Translations under genes and position numbers: made by a program
Notes under the pieces: generated by a model
Database searches by the model: none
What the model was told of the DNA's origin: nothing
What the model saw: the letters and a program-made list of their open reading frames with translations, nothing else
Shown: one piece after another, positions 1,261 through 64,000 of the stretch
How positions within the stretch are numbered: position 1 is the stretch's first letter
How the letters are laid out: every line of letters begins with the position of its first letter
Virus record (IMG/VR): IMGVR_UViG_3300037346_000220
Coordinates: 47,268-111,267 of that record
Direction: 5' to 3' (one strand)
DNA: 64,000 nucleotides
Source of the DNA: a virus

Positions 1261-1504
1261 TGCCTGGGACAGGTACAAAGAAAAACTAGGAGACACCAGA
1301 CCTTGGGATCTTTTAAACCCCAACACAGTTTACGCAGACAAGTCTGTTGCCCAAGAGAGATACAGCATCTGCAAGGCCTGCCCAAAACTTTTACCAACAA
1401 AGCAATGCGACGAATGTAAGTGCTTTATGAAAGTTAAGGTTACTCTTGCAGAAGCAGAATGCCCATTACATAAATGGGGTAAGTCTAACCAGGAAACTGA
1501 TTAA
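1253..1504 (+). CDS. Small Cys-rich (zinc-binding type) protein, copy 1
   Basis: 83 residues. The C-terminal half holds 'CKACPKLLPTKQCDECKCFM' and then 'AECPLHKW': two CxxC knuckles, an extra CxC and a final CP-x-x-KW. Six cysteines in this order suggest a structural zinc-binding domain. A clear homologue starts at 13106, with the same downstream 'CP-x-G-KW' ending and the same type of upstream neighbour. Similar proteins occur near tail genes of large aquatic phages (recalled, not searched). Function is unknown. Its last 20 bases run antisense over the end of the minus-strand transglycosylase gene. Confidence 0.65.
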   Translation: MTNAWDRYKEKLGDTRPWDLLNPNTVYADKSVAQERYSICKACPKLLPTKQCDECKCFMKVKVTLAEAECPLHKWGKSNQETD

Positions 1505-2072
1505 GCATAGCCTTAGCTTTTTCGCTAGTAGTCCAAGCACTCCAGGAAGAGCCTCCGTCAGAGATTACATATGCAACTCTAGAGTTTACTTCAGGGCTAA
1601 AGAGTTCTTCATTAGTTTTAAGACCATGTTGCTTGAGTCTTGCTGGACCCATGCTCCCAATCATGTTGATCTGAAAAAGACCGTAAGAGTTGTCTCCAGT
1701 ACTTGAGTTTTGGTTATGAGCATAGAGCCTGTTTGTTGATTCAAGCTTTACTACAGCCCAAGCCATCTGCAACCCTTTACCAGAAAATCCAGCGTTCTCT
1801 AAAACTGATATAAGATCTGTGTCAGACAAGACCATCTTCTGAAAATCTTCTCTAAGCCAGGGCTGGGTTGTTTTGATAGAAACCTCTAGCCTGGAAAAAC
1901 TTCTAGATTCTGATAATACTTCTATAAGGTTCATTCTGTTGCCGACAGAAAGTGTTTGTGTGATTTCTAATTCTTTAGCAAAGGCTCGTGGGGTTTCAAT
2001 TTCGTTACACTGGCTAACACCAGTCAAAATTCCTGCGACGATACCAAGGGAAACAATGGCTTTTTTCTCCAT
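1485..2072 (-). CDS. Lytic transglycosylase-like endolysin with signal-type N-terminus
   Basis: 195 residues; the only gene on this strand. Residues ~87-190 form an SLT/lysozyme-like fold: 'LENAGFSGKGLQMAWAVVKLES' carries the catalytic Glu (in KLES), followed by 'STGDNSYGLFQINM' and 'NSRVAYVISDGG-x-x-W-x-x-W', all typical of phage transglycosylase-type lysins that cut peptidoglycan glycan strands. The N-terminus (MEKKAIVSLGIVAGILTGVS) looks like a weak signal peptide, so export without a holin is possible. It has its own near-consensus promoter, divergent from the gene at 2151. Its 3' end overlaps the convergent Cys-rich gene. It could instead be virion-associated; the family assignment is firm, the timing of use is not. 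Confidence 0.8.
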   Translation of the reverse strand: MEKKAIVSLGIVAGILTGVSQCNEIETPRAFAKELEITQTLSVGNRMNLIEVLSESRSFSRLEVSIKTTQPWLREDFQKMVLSDTDLISVLENAGFSGKGLQMAWAVVKLESTNRLYAHNQNSSTGDNSYGLFQINMIGSMGPARLKQHGLKTNEELFSPEVNSRVAYVISDGGSSWSAWTTSEKAKAMLNQFPG

Positions 2073-8153: not shown

Positions 8154-8825
8154 ATGCAACCTGAAAAAGCCATGCCACAACCAATGCAAAGCCATTCTAA
8201 GTCAACTCAGCCACACAAGTTCTTTGAGTCATTTCTAGACAATGACTTGGAGTCTTTAGCAAATGAGTTACAGGCCAGGTACCAGCTAATTGAAAACGTT
8301 GAGATTAGAGGTGTCACTCCTGTCACCGAAGCAGATGGTTGGATAGACTCTGGCAGTGTTTCAACTATGAAGTGGCAACAATACAACGTCTTCCAGTTTA
8401 ACATTCCTGGTGTTCATAACCTTTACAAGGCCTTGTCTGAGATGGTTCACGAAGCCTGTAATTACTATGGAATAGATTTTGAGTCACAGAAATTTGTAGT
8501 CCAAGGCTGGTTCAATATTAACCACACAAAGACTGGGAAGCTAGATTGGCACGACCATGGCCCTGGAGGGGCCCCTCTATTTCACGGATACTATTCCGTA
8601 GCAGCAGAGCCTTCTGAGACACACTATATCGTAACGAACCAGGAAAAAAGAATTAATCATAATGTCAACAATCGTGCAATCTTGTCAGAGATGGCCCACC
8701 CACATGCTATGGCAGATTGGTCTTGGGAAGGCCCAAGAATAACAATCGCATATGATGTTCTTCCTATGGAGCACCTAATACCAGGAGGACCAGGCCAGGA
8801 GCAACATTGGATACCTCTAATCTAA
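8154..8825 (+). CDS. 2-oxoglutarate/Fe(II) oxygenase-like protein, copy 1
   Basis: 223 residues. The motif order fits the 2OG-FeII oxygenase group that uses H-x-H: 'FNINHTKTGKLDWHDHGPGG' (~residues 122-140), 'FHGYYSVAAEPSETHY' (~142-157), a distal His in 'MAHPHAMADW' (~181) and 'RITIAYDV' (~195) carrying the Arg that binds the co-substrate carboxylate. A clear paralogue starts at 60228. Such enzymes hydroxylate protein side chains or small molecules; the substrate here is unknown. It sits between a proline-repeat tip protein and a fibre gene, so virion-protein hydroxylation is a reasonable guess. An in-frame ATG at 8172 is an alternative start. Confidence 0.65.
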   Translation: MQPEKAMPQPMQSHSKSTQPHKFFESFLDNDLESLANELQARYQLIENVEIRGVTPVTEADGWIDSGSVSTMKWQQYNVFQFNIPGVHNLYKALSEMVHEACNYYGIDFESQKFVVQGWFNINHTKTGKLDWHDHGPGGAPLFHGYYSVAAEPSETHYIVTNQEKRINHNVNNRAILSEMAHPHAMADWSWEGPRITIAYDVLPMEHLIPGGPGQEQHWIPLI

Positions 8826-59888: not shown

Positions 59889-60152
59889 ATGGAATTCAGA
59901 CAAGTAGATAAGGCAAAGCTTTTTAAGAACATTGCCATAAGAATTACAGCAGTATTCATAGCCTCCGCACTAGGAGTCCTGGGTGCTGGAGCTATCGTCG
60001 GCGTAGGTGTTGGTGAGTCAGTAGTCATGGCTGGAATCCTGGGCGTAGCCAGTGTAATAGAAAGACTAGCTAGAGGATTCATAAACGACGGCAAGCTGAC
60101 ATTGGAAGAAATTGATAACGCCTTCTCTCCAAGAGATAGTAGCGGTATGTAA
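59889..60152 (+). CDS. Holin-like small membrane protein
   Basis: 87 residues. Two hydrophobic segments: 'IAIRITAVFIASALGVLGAGAIVGVGVG' (~16-43) and 'SVVMAGILGVASVIERLARGFI' (~45-66). They are followed by a charged C-terminus 'NDGKLTLEEIDNAFSPRDSS'. The size, two membrane segments and charged tail fit a class II-type holin, which forms the lesion that lets endolysin out or collapses the membrane. The transglycosylase gene is 58 kb away in this window, so the lysis genes are not a cassette here. It could be another small membrane protein. Confidence 0.5.
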   Translation: MEFRQVDKAKLFKNIAIRITAVFIASALGVLGAGAIVGVGVGESVVMAGILGVASVIERLARGFINDGKLTLEEIDNAFSPRDSSGM

Positions 60153-60227: not shown

Positions 60228-60962
60228 ATGATAGAAGATAAAGATGTAATCCTTAGCCCCTGGAGCTTTGACAAGAACGTCAAGCCACAGAAGTTTTTCG
60301 AAAGATTCTTAGATAACGATCTATCTTACACAGCCGAAAGACTCAAGATTGAGTACGAAAGAATAGCTAATGCTGAGATGATTGGAGTTACCCCTCAAGA
60401 CCCAGATAACGATATTTTTGTATATACAAAGTCGGTATCCACTCAGAAGTCTAGAGAGTACAATGCTTTTCAGATGTACTACCCCTTCATGCATGACCTG
60501 CTGTCTGCAGTTACAGACATGACAAGAGAAGCGTGTAAGTACTATGAGATTGATTACAACTCAGAGCAGTGGATGGCACAAGCCTGGTTTAATATTAACA
60601 GTAGAGAGAAGGGTGGAAAGTTGGACTGGCACGACCACCTTGACCCAAACATAACAGTACCAGCTTTTCATGGGTACTACTCTGTAAATGCTGAGCCTTC
60701 AGAAACACACTACAATATTAACGGTACAAACGTAATCAACGTAAACCAGAACAACAGGGCCATCCTTTCAATGGTTGGCTTCGAACACGCACAAGCACCC
60801 TGGAAATGGGATGGAGAGAGAATAACCATAGCTTACGATGTGGTTCCATTGAAGATCATGGAGCAGGAAGCCTACCTATCCTCCAAGTATATAAAGCCAG
60901 AAGAGAGGTTCTGGGAGCAGCACTACTTCCCTCTTCCTAAGATTTACGATCAGTCAAGTTGA
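60228..60962 (+). CDS. 2OG/Fe(II) oxygenase-like protein, copy 2
   Basis: 244 residues. It matches the product starting at 8154 along its length: 'VKPQKFFERFLDNDLSYTAERLK' near the start, 'KLDWHDHLDPN' (H-x-H), 'FHGYYSVNAEPSETHY', a distal His in 'GFEHAQAPW' and 'RITIAYDVVP'. It is longer by about 20 residues, mainly at the C-terminus ('RFWEQHYFPLPKIYDQ'). The promoter has a symmetric operator-like element. Two copies far apart suggest different substrates or timing. The substrate is unknown. Confidence 0.65.
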   Translation: MIEDKDVILSPWSFDKNVKPQKFFERFLDNDLSYTAERLKIEYERIANAEMIGVTPQDPDNDIFVYTKSVSTQKSREYNAFQMYYPFMHDLLSAVTDMTREACKYYEIDYNSEQWMAQAWFNINSREKGGKLDWHDHLDPNITVPAFHGYYSVNAEPSETHYNINGTNVINVNQNNRAILSMVGFEHAQAPWKWDGERITIAYDVVPLKIMEQEAYLSSKYIKPEERFWEQHYFPLPKIYDQSS

Positions 60963-60981
60963 CAGATCTGATCTCTTAAGG

Positions 60982-60987
60982 TATACT
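60982..60987 (+). promoter_or_regulatory. -10 promoter, leaderless
   Basis: TATACT exactly 6 nt before the ATG at 60994; no Shine-Dalgarno is visible. Confidence 0.55.
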
Positions 60988-60993
60988 CTAGAT

Positions 60994-61170
60994 ATGGATA
61001 AAAATATTAGTTTGGGAGACTGGCTAGAGATTGGACAAGAAAAGGGTTGGATATCACAGCCCTTCTGTTTCACTCATGACGGCGACTCCTACATGACAGA
61101 AGAAGAAGAAGCCGAATGGGAAGAAGGGGGTGACCCATGTTGTCAAGTCGTAAAGTTCTTGCAGTACTAG
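60994..61170 (+). CDS. Small acidic conserved protein (58 aa)
   Basis: 58 residues. 'DWLEIGQEKGWISQPFCFTHDGDSYMTEEEEAEWEEGGDPC' has the order W-x-x-x-G-x-x-x-G-W-x-x-x-x-x-C-x-x-H-D-G, then an acidic run and 'GGDPC'. I recall near-identical small proteins in actinobacteria and their phages (not searched). It overlaps the start of the lipoprotein gene by 34 bases in another frame. The leaderless -10 box supports its start. Function is unknown; conserved Cys and His could bind metal. Confidence 0.6.
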   Translation: MDKNISLGDWLEIGQEKGWISQPFCFTHDGDSYMTEEEEAEWEEGGDPCCQVVKFLQY

Positions 61171-62213
61171 GCTCTACCATTGTTTTAGCTGCAACGTTAG
61201 TAGCATGCACACCAGCTGATGCTGCTGCCACTTGCACCTTGGTAAACAAGTATTACCCTAATGGGGTATCGGCAAGCAAGTATTCCAAGAATGTTGGAAC
61301 AGATATCATGCCACCCAAAGTCAGGTCAAGTGTCTACAAGAAATATAAGTATTTAGACTTAGATAGAGATACCATTGTATGCGAAAAAGAAATTACAGAC
61401 AAACAGCTGTTGGCTTTTAATAGTCTGTATGCTTCAGGGCCCACCACGGGAGGAAGCTTAGAGGGTATCAACTTCTTAGTATCCAACAATGTAAGCAAAG
61501 AAGTCCTTAAGCATGAGAAGAGTCTACTAAAGATTGCTACGTCTGTTTGGGCTTCCTATCAGGTGAAGGATGTGAGCGTTGCATACTTTACTCGTAAAGA
61601 CGCAGTATGGTTACAGGATATCCTTTCTCAGTATGGGGGAAGAATGTCTCCAGGTAAGACTGTTCAGCAGTGGCTAGACACTTACCCAAATCAGTGCACG
61701 GTAGCTTTTGCAACCAAGGGTCTAGATGAAAAGCCAATATTCTACCTATGCGTTGATGATAAGGTAAGAGACAATTCATATGATCAAACAGGAATTCATG
61801 AGTACTTTCACCTAGTCCAGGACAGTATTGGCATTAGCGGTGCAAACGCACCCTCTTGGTTGATAGAAGGTTCCGCTGCCTACTTTGGAGCAACCCTTGC
61901 CACAAAAGACTACAAGTTCGCTAAAAAGTTTGCAGGGTACACAGGCAAGGTGTATGTTCAAGATGCTATTTCCGTGATGAGAAAGCTAGAAGATCCAGAT
62001 AGAAGATTCGATGGATACAAGCTAAATCATTACGGTATGGGTTCGTTAGCTACACAACTACTCATAGCTGATTACGGATACGAAAAGTTTATGGAATTCT
62101 TAAAAGCAATCCCCAACGAGGGTTGGAAAGAATCGATGATCTCAAATTTTGGAATTGATTCAGAATCGTTTTACAAAAACTATGCAGATTACCTGAAAGT
62201 ACTGTATAATTAA
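61137..62213 (+). CDS. Secreted lipoprotein with Excalibur-like and HExxH peptidase domains
   Basis: 358 residues. Signal peptide with lipobox 'LVAC' (Cys24): exported and lipid-anchored. Residues ~33-84 look like an Excalibur domain ('CTLVNKYYPNGVSASKYSKN', then D-x-D-x-D at 74-78 and Cys82), a Ca-binding module of secreted actinobacterial and firmicute proteins. Residues ~130-358 carry 'GIHEYFHLVQD' (HExxH at 221-225) and, 18 residues later, 'WLIEGSAAYF' (Glu244), the gluzincin zinc-peptidase set. 'NHYGMGSLATQLLIADYGYEKF' follows, usual in M1/gluzincin-like lipoproteins. It would act outside the host membrane. Possible roles: superinfection exclusion, cell-wall or surface processing. GGGGGTGA precedes the ATG. 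Confidence 0.75.
   Translation: MLSSRKVLAVLGSTIVLAATLVACTPADAAATCTLVNKYYPNGVSASKYSKNVGTDIMPPKVRSSVYKKYKYLDLDRDTIVCEKEITDKQLLAFNSLYASGPTTGGSLEGINFLVSNNVSKEVLKHEKSLLKIATSVWASYQVKDVSVAYFTRKDAVWLQDILSQYGGRMSPGKTVQQWLDTYPNQCTVAFATKGLDEKPIFYLCVDDKVRDNSYDQTGIHEYFHLVQDSIGISGANAPSWLIEGSAAYFGATLATKDYKFAKKFAGYTGKVYVQDAISVMRKLEDPDRRFDGYKLNHYGMGSLATQLLIADYGYEKFMEFLKAIPNEGWKESMISNFGIDSESFYKNYADYLKVLYN
62203..62210 (+). promoter_or_regulatory. -10 promoter for the RNA region and tRNA
   Basis: TG-TATAAT (-10 at 62205-62210) overlaps the end of the lipoprotein gene, expected start near 62217. It would transcribe the hairpin region and the tRNA-Thr. Confidence 0.5.
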
Positions 62214-62216
62214 GTA

Positions 62217-62358
62217 GTCATCATGCTTTTATCACTCAAGGATATTCGCTGCATGAGGACTTAAGAGAATTATCAGACAGTGCGAAAGTGTTGTCTTAAT
62301 GGCTTAATAGCTATTACAGGTGTTGTCCCTACCTGGGTGCTCGTATCAAGGGGCACAA
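62217..62358 (+). ncRNA. Candidate structured RNA upstream of tRNA-Thr
   Basis: No credible frame. Five hairpins can be drawn: TCATGC/GCATGA (62221-62226 / 62251-62256); 9 bp with a GAAA loop (62275-62296, three wobble pairs next to the loop); 8 bp with a TAAT loop (62297-62316); CAGGT/ACCTG (62317-62335); and GTGC/GCAC (62337-62356). The last four follow one another with at most one unpaired base between them. It starts at a -10 box and ends at the tRNA. No known RNA family is recognised; it could also be a processed tRNA leader. Confidence 0.4.
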
Positions 62359-62432
62359 GCCCCCTTAACTCAGTTGGCCAGAGTGCCACTCTTGTAAAGT
62401 GGAAGTCGTCGGTTCGAATCCGACAGAGGGCT
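62359..62432 (+). tRNA. tRNA-Thr (anticodon TGT)
   Basis: Acceptor arms GCCCCCT / AGAGGGC pair with one C-A mismatch at the fifth position. D stem ACTC/GAGT, anticodon stem CCACT/AGTGG with loop CTTGTAA (anticodon TGT at positions 34-36), T stem GTCGG/CCGAC with loop TTCGAAT. CCA is not encoded after the discriminator T. It reads ACA, a codon used often in the fibre genes here. The mismatch may mean a somewhat weakened or decaying tRNA. Confidence 0.9.
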
Positions 62433-62452
62433 CAAAGATAGAAAGGTTTTTC

Positions 62453-63133
62453 GTGGAAGAAAAGAAAATTCTTCAAGAGACAGTAGACTATGACAAAGAT
62501 GCCTGGGTGACAAGTCCAGATCCAGACTTTAAGACTCTGTATGCCGATGTCCGAGCCCCAGAAAACTGGGTATCTTTTGAAACAGTTGCCACAGGCAGGT
62601 ATGCTAAAGAAGTAATCAAGCCACTTAGTAACTACAACTCCGTCCTAGTCCCACCACCAGAGCTAAAGAGTATTGTAGGAAACATCGTAACCCTTAGGTA
62701 CAGAACATTTGCAGACATCTACGTAATCGATAAGGGTGAGTCAGGTAACTTCTACAATGTAGATAGACCGTGGGTAAGACAATACTATATGACAGCAAAG
62801 GATTACCCAGTACCTGAGGATGCATGGAGCAAGACCTACAAGTTCTACACCCCTTGGTTCCTTGACTACAAGGTAGAGGTTACTTACAAGCCAATCTTTG
62901 ATGAGGAGACGCCTTTCTATGTTCAAGAAACTAGAGACATGTGGCATCCAGTACATAAAGAAGTCGTTATAGCCAATCCCCACTTTGTCCCATTTAACTT
63001 TAAGAAGGTAGGATCTCACATGAAGGACGCTGATTATGGAGTCATAGAGATTGGTTCCCCAATGTTTGACATGGAGTTCGTAGCAGATGATATAATATTA
63101 GAGAAGGTCAGGAGCTTCTATGCCAATAATTAA
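62453..63133 (+). CDS. Conserved phage protein, unknown
   Basis: 226 residues from a GTG, with AGAAAGG 6 nt upstream. The frame is open further back into the tRNA, but that part cannot be coding. 'AWVTSPDPDFKTLYADVRAPENWVSFETVATGRYAKEVIKPLSNY' opens it, and 'YKFYTPWFLDYKVEVTYKPIFDEETPFYVQETRDMWHPVH' lies in the middle. The end 'HFVPFNFKKVGSHMKDADYGVIEIGSPMFDMEF' has a 'G-V-I-x-x-G-[ST]-P' strand that recalls 'GVIKQGTPLVQILPI' of the next gene, so remote kinship is possible. No membrane segment or active site is seen. Confidence 0.55.
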   Translation: MEEKKILQETVDYDKDAWVTSPDPDFKTLYADVRAPENWVSFETVATGRYAKEVIKPLSNYNSVLVPPPELKSIVGNIVTLRYRTFADIYVIDKGESGNFYNVDRPWVRQYYMTAKDYPVPEDAWSKTYKFYTPWFLDYKVEVTYKPIFDEETPFYVQETRDMWHPVHKEVVIANPHFVPFNFKKVGSHMKDADYGVIEIGSPMFDMEFVADDIILEKVRSFYANN

Positions 63134-63842
63134 ATTTTACCCATTCAATGATGCAACAGCAGAGTTTGCGCCACCCCCTAAACCAGGTATAAGGTTTGTT
63201 CCAGATTGGTACAAGTCCCAACCAGGAAGCAAGGATGATGAAAAGTCAATACCTATGGGGTTTGCAACCTCAACCGTAAAGCGCTGCATGCCAATCTTCG
63301 ATGCTATGACAGCAGGATATATATTAGGAGCGCCCTGTGACATATACTTAGACGCAACTGACCCAGAGAAGCTTTCATGGTCTGTACCTCTCAACGTAAA
63401 GAAGTATGAGCATGAGTTATTCTCTTTCCACTCTCCAGAACAGTATGAGAGCTATCCTATTGATCCTTCAGGGTACCACAAGCAACTGCTAAGGGTTATG
63501 CCTACCTGGGCAGTTGGAACTGAAAAGGGGTATAGCGCTTTCTTTATGAACCCTCACCACGCAGACGAATCTCCTCTATGGGCCTTCTCTGCCCTGGTTG
63601 ACACTGATGAGTTTGTTAGTGATGGACACCTATCTTTTCTGGTAAAGAAAGACTTCAAGGGTGTCATAAAGCAGGGAACTCCTTTAGTGCAGATACTACC
63701 AATAAAAAGAGAAGACTGGAAGATGGAAACAGCCTCAGCACCTGAAGCCAGGAAGCTGTTCTCAACTCAAAGAAATATCCTCAGGAGCACGTTCATGAAC
63801 GGATATAAGAATAAGTTTAGGTCTAAGAAAGAATACAAGTAG
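63120..63842 (+). CDS. Conserved phage protein, DUF6065-like (tentative), copy 2
   Basis: 240 residues. Landmarks shared with the product starting at 12011: 'GIRFVPDWYKSQ' near the start, 'TVKRCMPIFDAMTAGYILGAPCDIYLD' (~58-84), 'PTWAVGTEKGYSAFFMNPHHAD' (~128-150), 'GHLSFLVKKDFKGVIKQGTPLVQILPIKREDWKME' (~168-202). It overlaps the gene before it by 14 bases, with AGGAG inside that gene. The third relative starts 1 base after its stop. Function is unknown; beta-rich, no catalytic residues recognised. Confidence 0.6.
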   Translation: MPIIKFYPFNDATAEFAPPPKPGIRFVPDWYKSQPGSKDDEKSIPMGFATSTVKRCMPIFDAMTAGYILGAPCDIYLDATDPEKLSWSVPLNVKKYEHELFSFHSPEQYESYPIDPSGYHKQLLRVMPTWAVGTEKGYSAFFMNPHHADESPLWAFSALVDTDEFVSDGHLSFLVKKDFKGVIKQGTPLVQILPIKREDWKMETASAPEARKLFSTQRNILRSTFMNGYKNKFRSKKEYK

Positions 63843-63843
63843 T

Positions 63844-64000
63844 ATGTCGGAAGACTTTAAAAAGATATCTTTTACACCTAGCAGGAAAAATGATGATGGG
63901 CTGTTGCTACCTCCCGAACCTGCCTCATGGCATATCCCAGAGTGGTACAAGAGTTTGGCTAAGTTTGAAAGATCAAACAGTGAAAAACAACTCTTCCCCG
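63844..64000 (+). CDS. DUF6065-like protein, copy 3 (partial at right edge)
   Basis: 52 residues are visible before the window ends. 'KISFTPSRKNDDGLLLPPEPASWHIPEWYKSLAKFE' corresponds to the N-terminal parts of the products starting at 12011 and 63120 ('I-P-E-W-Y-K-S' against 'VPDWYKSQ' and 'VPQWFKDA'). It is a tandem relative of the preceding gene, so this family has at least three members in this phage. The rest lies outside. Confidence 0.6.
   Translation, partial: MSEDFKKISFTPSRKNDDGLLLPPEPASWHIPEWYKSLAKFERSNSEKQLFP

Follow-up and report, generated by a model that had tools for sequence, protein, structure and literature searches.

A candidate exported metallopeptidase in an exchangeable cargo slot of an actinobacterial phage

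A virus record of 111,267 bases carries in its right-hand part, analysed here as one stretch of 64,000 nucleotides (the window), a gene whose product is a putative gluzincin-like metallopeptidase, and we hold, at a little better than an even chance, that it is a host-derived exported peptidase of the MA clan, carried as cargo, that cuts host-envelope proteins outside the membrane. In the proposed mechanism, the gene would be cargo of host origin, a secreted MA-clan zinc peptidase of the gluzincin type whose lipobox was gained in this phage; its product would be exported by Sec during infection, anchored, probably via a lipid, to the outside of the cytoplasmic membrane, and would there cut proteins of the host envelope. 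The proposal draws on a predicted export signal with a lipobox, an HExxH...E motif, homology to a peptidase family of the host order, and a conserved genomic unit in which this protein and an unrelated subtilisin-like protease alternate. More tentatively, and somewhat short of an even chance, this unit may be a dedicated, promoter-equipped "surface-protease slot" that exchanges unrelated host-derived exported proteases (gluzincin, subtilisin and a dead variant) for alteration of the host surface in abundant aquatic actinobacteria.

Phage-encoded exported proteases are known in principle; the phages known to place such enzymes on the host surface are few, and a literature search confined to open PMC text turned up none for this group of actinobacterial phages. 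The same search, which was not exhaustive, gave no earlier account of the slot, or of either protease in phages of this kind; new here are the exchangeable slot and the two host-derived protease families, previously unannotated. The slot provides a concrete handle on how phages alter the surfaces of small aquatic actinobacteria.

The phage genome and the layout of the slot

The first 127 bases of the record are identical to its last 127 (window positions 63874–64000), and contig L142 spans the terminal junction of the record; the record therefore circularises, into a circle of about 111,140 bp. An earlier note on this DNA had described the peptidase as phage-encoded, and this is borne out by a DnaE 55% identical to that of Streptomyces phage Muntaha and its kin (Stanwilliamsviridae), as well as by a portal, a maturation protease, head proteins and WhiB, the last regarded as an actinophage marker (PMC10202952). 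The phage is one of freshwater-type actinobacteria. Its genome runs forward except for a lone minus-strand gene (window 1485–2072), the product of which has a hydrophobic N-terminus and a match to the lysozyme-like SLT_3 domain (PF18896, E = 5.6e-15).

Table 1. Features of the slot, in window coordinates, and parts of the metallopeptidase, in residues
Feature	Position	Strand	Description
Holin-like small membrane protein	59889–60152	+	phrog_443, E = 1e-4; conserved left-hand neighbour
oxy244	60228–60962	+	ORF preceding the slot in some relatives, whichever protease they carry
Promoter, near-consensus sigma-70 type	60959–60987	+	TTGACA-17-TATACT; from consensus match and conservation
small58	60994–61170	+	conserved acidic ORF, 58 aa; overlaps start of peptidase gene by 34 nt
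Metallopeptidase lipoprotein gene	61137–62213	+	358 aa; gluzincin-like, exported (predicted)
Signal peptide	residues 1–23
Lipidated cysteine	Cys24		predicted
Excalibur-like segment	residues 31–83
Peptidase domain	residues ~100–358
Zinc-site residues	H221, E222, H225, E244
tRNA-Thr (TGT)	62359–62433	+	directly behind cargo gene
p244b	62435–63133	+	conserved ORF downstream of the slot
p240	63120–63842	+	phrog_7084 family; conserved right-hand slot flank

The slot is anchored in related phages by small58, and its layout of promoter, small58, one cargo gene and tRNAs recurs in dozens of them. Four loci (the window, L072, L079 and L114) run from the holin-like gene through oxy244, small58, the metallopeptidase, the tRNA(s) and p244b to p240; in L111, L065, L066, L068 and L097, small58 and p244b/p240 flank a different, subtilisin-like gene. 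Directly behind small58, the metallopeptidase stands in 12 loci and the subtilisin type in 16, counts that include L106 and L107, added on reading the sequences, and that reduce, owing to several near-duplicates, to about 6 and about 11 distinct lineages. Both proteases together were found in none of 37 records, many of which are fragments. At other loci no gene fills the slot, or its occupant is a carbamoyltransferase (directly behind small58 in L083 and L095), an HNH-like ORF, a 139-aa exported protein or an M23-LysM endolysin. When the two protease labels are mapped on the NrdA tree, 5 changes are needed, at least 4 of which are forced by well-supported branches. The likeness to a cargo locus suggested in the earlier note is strengthened by this alternation of unrelated secreted proteases at one slot.

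Several neighbours deserve comment. The holin-like protein has a stronger match to phrog_26427, labelled nuclease, than to phrog_443, and the ORF listed for p244b opens at a GTG (62399) inside the tRNA, its true start probably lying later. The starts of oxy244 and of an ORF at window 8154–8825 are similar (KFFE.FLDN), so that the structural region may contain a paralogue of oxy244. In L116 (6032–6559; phrog_1040, E = 4.5e-22) and L066 (13623–14153; assigned by resemblance), the position of oxy244 immediately before small58 is taken by an HslV/proteasome-like peptidase. Downstream of the slot, at the left end of the record, is a Nol-like carbamoyltransferase (L186:3219–4655; phrog_1601, E = 2e-104).

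Between the predicted promoter and the small58 ATG lie 6 nt, a leaderless arrangement. Essentially every small58 locus examined has a site that agrees with the consensus at 10–12 of 12 positions, has exactly 17 nt between its two boxes, and lies 5–7 nt or about 27–29 nt before a start codon; the search took the best site per region, which maximises the individual scores, and the constancy of spacer and position would not be expected by chance. Across the whole record there are 12 near-consensus sites (at most 1 mismatch); some lie close to the genes for primase and DnaE, and the structural block has none. Behind the cargo gene, the tRNA reported earlier is indeed present, as tRNA-Thr(TGT), and relatives carry tRNAs for Asn, Asp, Thr and often Glu. 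The candidate RNA that had been placed beside the gene is not supported as a known RNA or as a separate, non-tRNA part of the cargo: the 145 nt between the peptidase gene and tRNA-Thr (62214–62358) fold better than shuffles (z = −2.7), with no match to any Rfam family and no convincing tRNA remnant, and relatives have tRNA-Asn and tRNA-Asp there.

The metallopeptidase, its relatives and the alternative cargo

The open reading frame is present exactly at the position, strand and length given in the earlier note. Its product begins with a charged MLSSRK, followed by a hydrophobic core and the lipobox L-V-A-C24 (LVAC at 21–24), which fits the pattern [LVI][ASTVIG][GAS]C; the signal peptide with lipobox claimed before is thus found, and the protein is a predicted lipoprotein, with an alternative signal-peptidase-I site (ADA-A) after the lipobox. 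Four of the six phage proteins have a lipobox (the window protein, L072, L079 and L114), which is absent from L118 and L122. As for the Excalibur-like domain proposed previously, the D-x-D-x-D..C loop is present, in an Asp-rich Cys-Glu stretch (LDLDRDTIVCE, residues 73–83), but an Excalibur domain proper is not supported, the match of residues 31–83 to positions 2–36 of the Pfam profile PF05901 scoring 16.0 bits (E = 0.016) under a cut-off of 22. The usual residue of the Excalibur loop is Gly where the metallopeptidase has Thr, and no fusion of Excalibur with the peptidase was found among the cellular relatives compared.

The zinc-site motif HExxH(18)E is confirmed as H221-E-Y-F-H225, 18 residues and E244. 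It arises in 4 of 100,000 shuffles of the protein, the fuller form HExxH..W..EG.A.[YF] in 0 of 100,000, and at the DNA level it is seen a single time in the window and in none of 100 shuffles; the motif is far above chance. The metallopeptidase alone has no significant match in Pfam, PHROGs, NCBIfam or PDB sequences, and viral scans with it as sole query gave nothing beyond the near-identical record. Likewise, tblastn searches of 50,697 phage records gave no match with the metallopeptidase, with small58 or with the subtilisin-like cargo. Homologues were found behind ribonucleotide-reductase genes in related viral contigs (L072, L079, L114, L118 and L122), five further distinct phage proteins that share 16–25% overall identity.

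Peptidase families were searched, as the earlier note had advised. The window protein itself passes no curated cut-off and has no match to Peptidase_MA_2 (PF13485), to which its sister L072 matches with E = 1.5e-6 and 28.6 bits (curated cut-off 32.4); the sister L122 matches M9 collagenase (E = 1.4e-4). The AlphaFold model, confident for the peptidase domain only (residues 1–84 are of low confidence), places HExxH in a helix (218–230) and E244 in the next (240–256). Its best PDB fold match is an M61 aminopeptidase (7xyo_B; probability 0.98, with E = 0.086 and TM 0.37), and a fold search of BFVD gave nothing significant. Because of the profile matches of the sisters, the zinc-site helices of the model and the M61 best match, we call the protein gluzincin-like, in agreement with the earlier assignment.

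All four zinc-site residues are kept in 40 of 45 aligned stretches; 5 of the 6 distinct phage proteins and most cellular ones keep them at about 25% identity. The exception among the phages reads QKYFQ...WISGG where others read HEYFH...W..EG, and has lost all four catalytic residues; these copies are identical in two samples (L114:14282–15538 and L115:8068–9324), with an intact 419-codon frame, so that catalysis is usually, not always, retained. Degenerate members occur among host proteins too. Compared with the near-identical L002, the peptidase gene has 9 nucleotide and 2 amino-acid differences (dN 0.0024, dS 0.030), and it appears to be under purifying selection, with a dN/dS well below 1 that is based on these 9 differences only.

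A first scan of genome contigs with query A2 gave no relatives, and a motif-pattern search then found cellular ones in an actinobacterial MAG (L138) of Rimov-type freshwater. In the order of L138, a model built from phage proteins only matched 52 of 101 genomes, often with several copies each, and a model including L138 matched 115 of 201, as against 3 of 295 genomes sampled from the rest of the phylum, where the family is nearly absent. Judged by these matches, the metallopeptidase belongs to an unnamed family of predicted secreted peptidases that is common in one small-genome actinobacterial order; from its genome sizes of 0.8–2.2 Mb and its freshwater source, this order is likely to be 'Ca. 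Nanopelagicales' (acI). One record, L139 (CAMCYO010000008.1), is titled Streptomyces griseus yet is part of a MAG of 1.5 Mb that groups with the small-genome order, and the title looks wrong.

Within the peptidase domain the cellular family is homologous to the window protein (HEYFHLVQ...W..EGSATYFG), L150 and L151 being its nearest members in the tree. Most cellular proteins carry a plain Sec signal together with a C-K-G...C-K-S-G-K..W module, whereas the window protein has the lipobox and the Excalibur-like segment instead. A tree of the domain requires at least two separate origins for the phage proteins; the window protein lies near L150/L151 with moderate support, and L122 falls within a supported group of cellular sequences. 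Finer conclusions are limited by long branches. Phages thus apparently acquired the peptidase from their hosts at least twice.

The alternative cargo is non-homologous to the metallopeptidase and is a putative secreted subtilisin-like (S8) protease. It is predicted to be exported, its residues D32, H70, N171 and S244 are invariant in 13 members, it matches a subtilisin profile (E = 5e-6), it scores below the Pfam cut-offs, and Foldseek assigns it a subtilisin fold (E = 1e-9, TM 0.58). Relatives occur in 12 of the 101 genomes of the same actinobacterial order, and one pair of S8 genes gave dN 0.016 and dS 0.145. In L068 (14590–15375) the subtilisin-like cargo is split into ORFs of 131 and 108 aa, by decay or sequencing error.

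Possible functions of the exported proteases

Because two unrelated protease folds fill the slot, selection is likely to favour proteolysis outside the membrane and not one binding interaction; that unrelated proteases have refilled it repeatedly suggests that extracellular proteolysis as such is the property most likely selected. Against catalysis being essential, the L114/L115 lineage would seem to do without it. The slots that are empty or filled by other genes, and the position of the window protein below every Pfam, NCBIfam, PHROG and PDB threshold, also count against the main proposal. It is conceivable that the fold is kept as a non-catalytic surface binder in which the zinc site is incidental, a reading consistent with the intact frame of this lineage and with the degenerate host members. 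We consider it improbable, given that the four residues persist in most phage and cellular proteins at such low identity and that the alternative cargo is a subtilisin-like protein with a complete catalytic set. Highly improbable is a protein that is virion-associated or structural, or a functionless passenger. Its patchy presence (5 of the 50 related records, many of them fragments) and the split S8 copy would fit such a reading, but the slot has repeatedly been refilled with proteases, dN/dS is well below 1, and the gene lies outside the structural block; a virion role was judged unlikely from the export signal.

If the enzyme does act outside the membrane, its purpose may be sought in exit from the cell, in exclusion of other phages or in nutrition. 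Our slightly favoured guess, at less than even confidence, is that the envelope is remodelled in a way that promotes lysis and the release of virions. The earlier note regarded the peptidase as not needed for virion assembly or standard lysis, and named help with lysis beside receptor cleavage, superinfection exclusion and defence as what it could do. A role beside the lysis genes may be envisaged: the holin-like gene sits some 1 kb upstream, an M23-LysM endolysin lies past the circular junction, about 7 kb downstream (within 2–3 kb of small58 in L054 and L116), and exit has a precedent in the Mtz/Tim system discussed below. Rather unlikely, though close behind as a purpose, is receptor destruction or superinfection exclusion, in which an early, surface-anchored enzyme would cleave a protein receptor and block adsorption of related phages, and of progeny, to the infected cell or its debris. 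The lipobox in four of six phage proteins, which would give a location like that of the Ltp lipoproteins (PMC3952083), agrees with exclusion, and the swapping of cargo together with one catalytically dead member would be in keeping with an arms race or with a role in binding. The promoter before the unit, of a class found near the primase and DnaE genes, points the same way: its absence from the structural region hints at early rather than late expression, which weakens an exit role. However, the nearest near-consensus promoter upstream of the endolysin is the slot promoter itself, so this class cannot separate early from lysis genes. Finally, a secreted peptidase might feed the infected cell with amino acids from external protein, a function that any protease fold would serve and that would accord with secreted cellular relatives widespread in the host order. 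We regard such a nutrient gene as distinctly improbable, since a lipobox that would anchor the enzyme in four phage lineages is poorly suited to scavenging, and the benefit over one short infection in dilute plankton would presumably be small.

Comparison with known systems

The preferred reading, an exported and anchored peptidase acting on the host envelope, can be set against several known systems. With MA-clan gluzincins (PF13485, M61, M1 and M9) the window protein shares the HExxH helix and, in the next helix, a Glu 18 residues on with W..EG.A.Y, besides the weak profile and fold matches that it or its sisters show; it differs in falling below every curated cut-off, in having its own N-terminal part, and in belonging to a family found mainly in one actinobacterial order and its phages. 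In Listeria, lysis by phage is enhanced by the phage-derived secreted metzincin Mtz acting together with the TIMP-like Tim (PMC8235301). Mtz is an exported metalloprotease that acts outside the membrane, as is predicted for the slot peptidase; it is encoded close to holin and lysin genes, which in the window stand about 1 kb (a holin-like gene) and about 7 kb away. It is a metzincin that works with a lipoprotein partner, whereas the slot peptidase is gluzincin-like. The metzincin motif HExxHxxGxxH is absent from the metallopeptidase, which reads HEYFHLVQDSIG, and no Tim-like lipoprotein lies beside it, its neighbours being small58 and a tRNA. By description, a likeness can also be drawn to a secreted antiphage protease of Salinispora, which lowers phage titre (PMC13175485) and is likewise an exported actinobacterial protease affecting infection from outside the cell, although it is encoded by the bacterium and not by a phage. 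Ltp proteins are superinfection-exclusion lipoproteins on the host surface (PMC3952083), the location predicted for the slot peptidase, but are not proteases. We liken the exchange of cargo at the slot to that of receptor-binding proteins and anti-defence genes in other phages.
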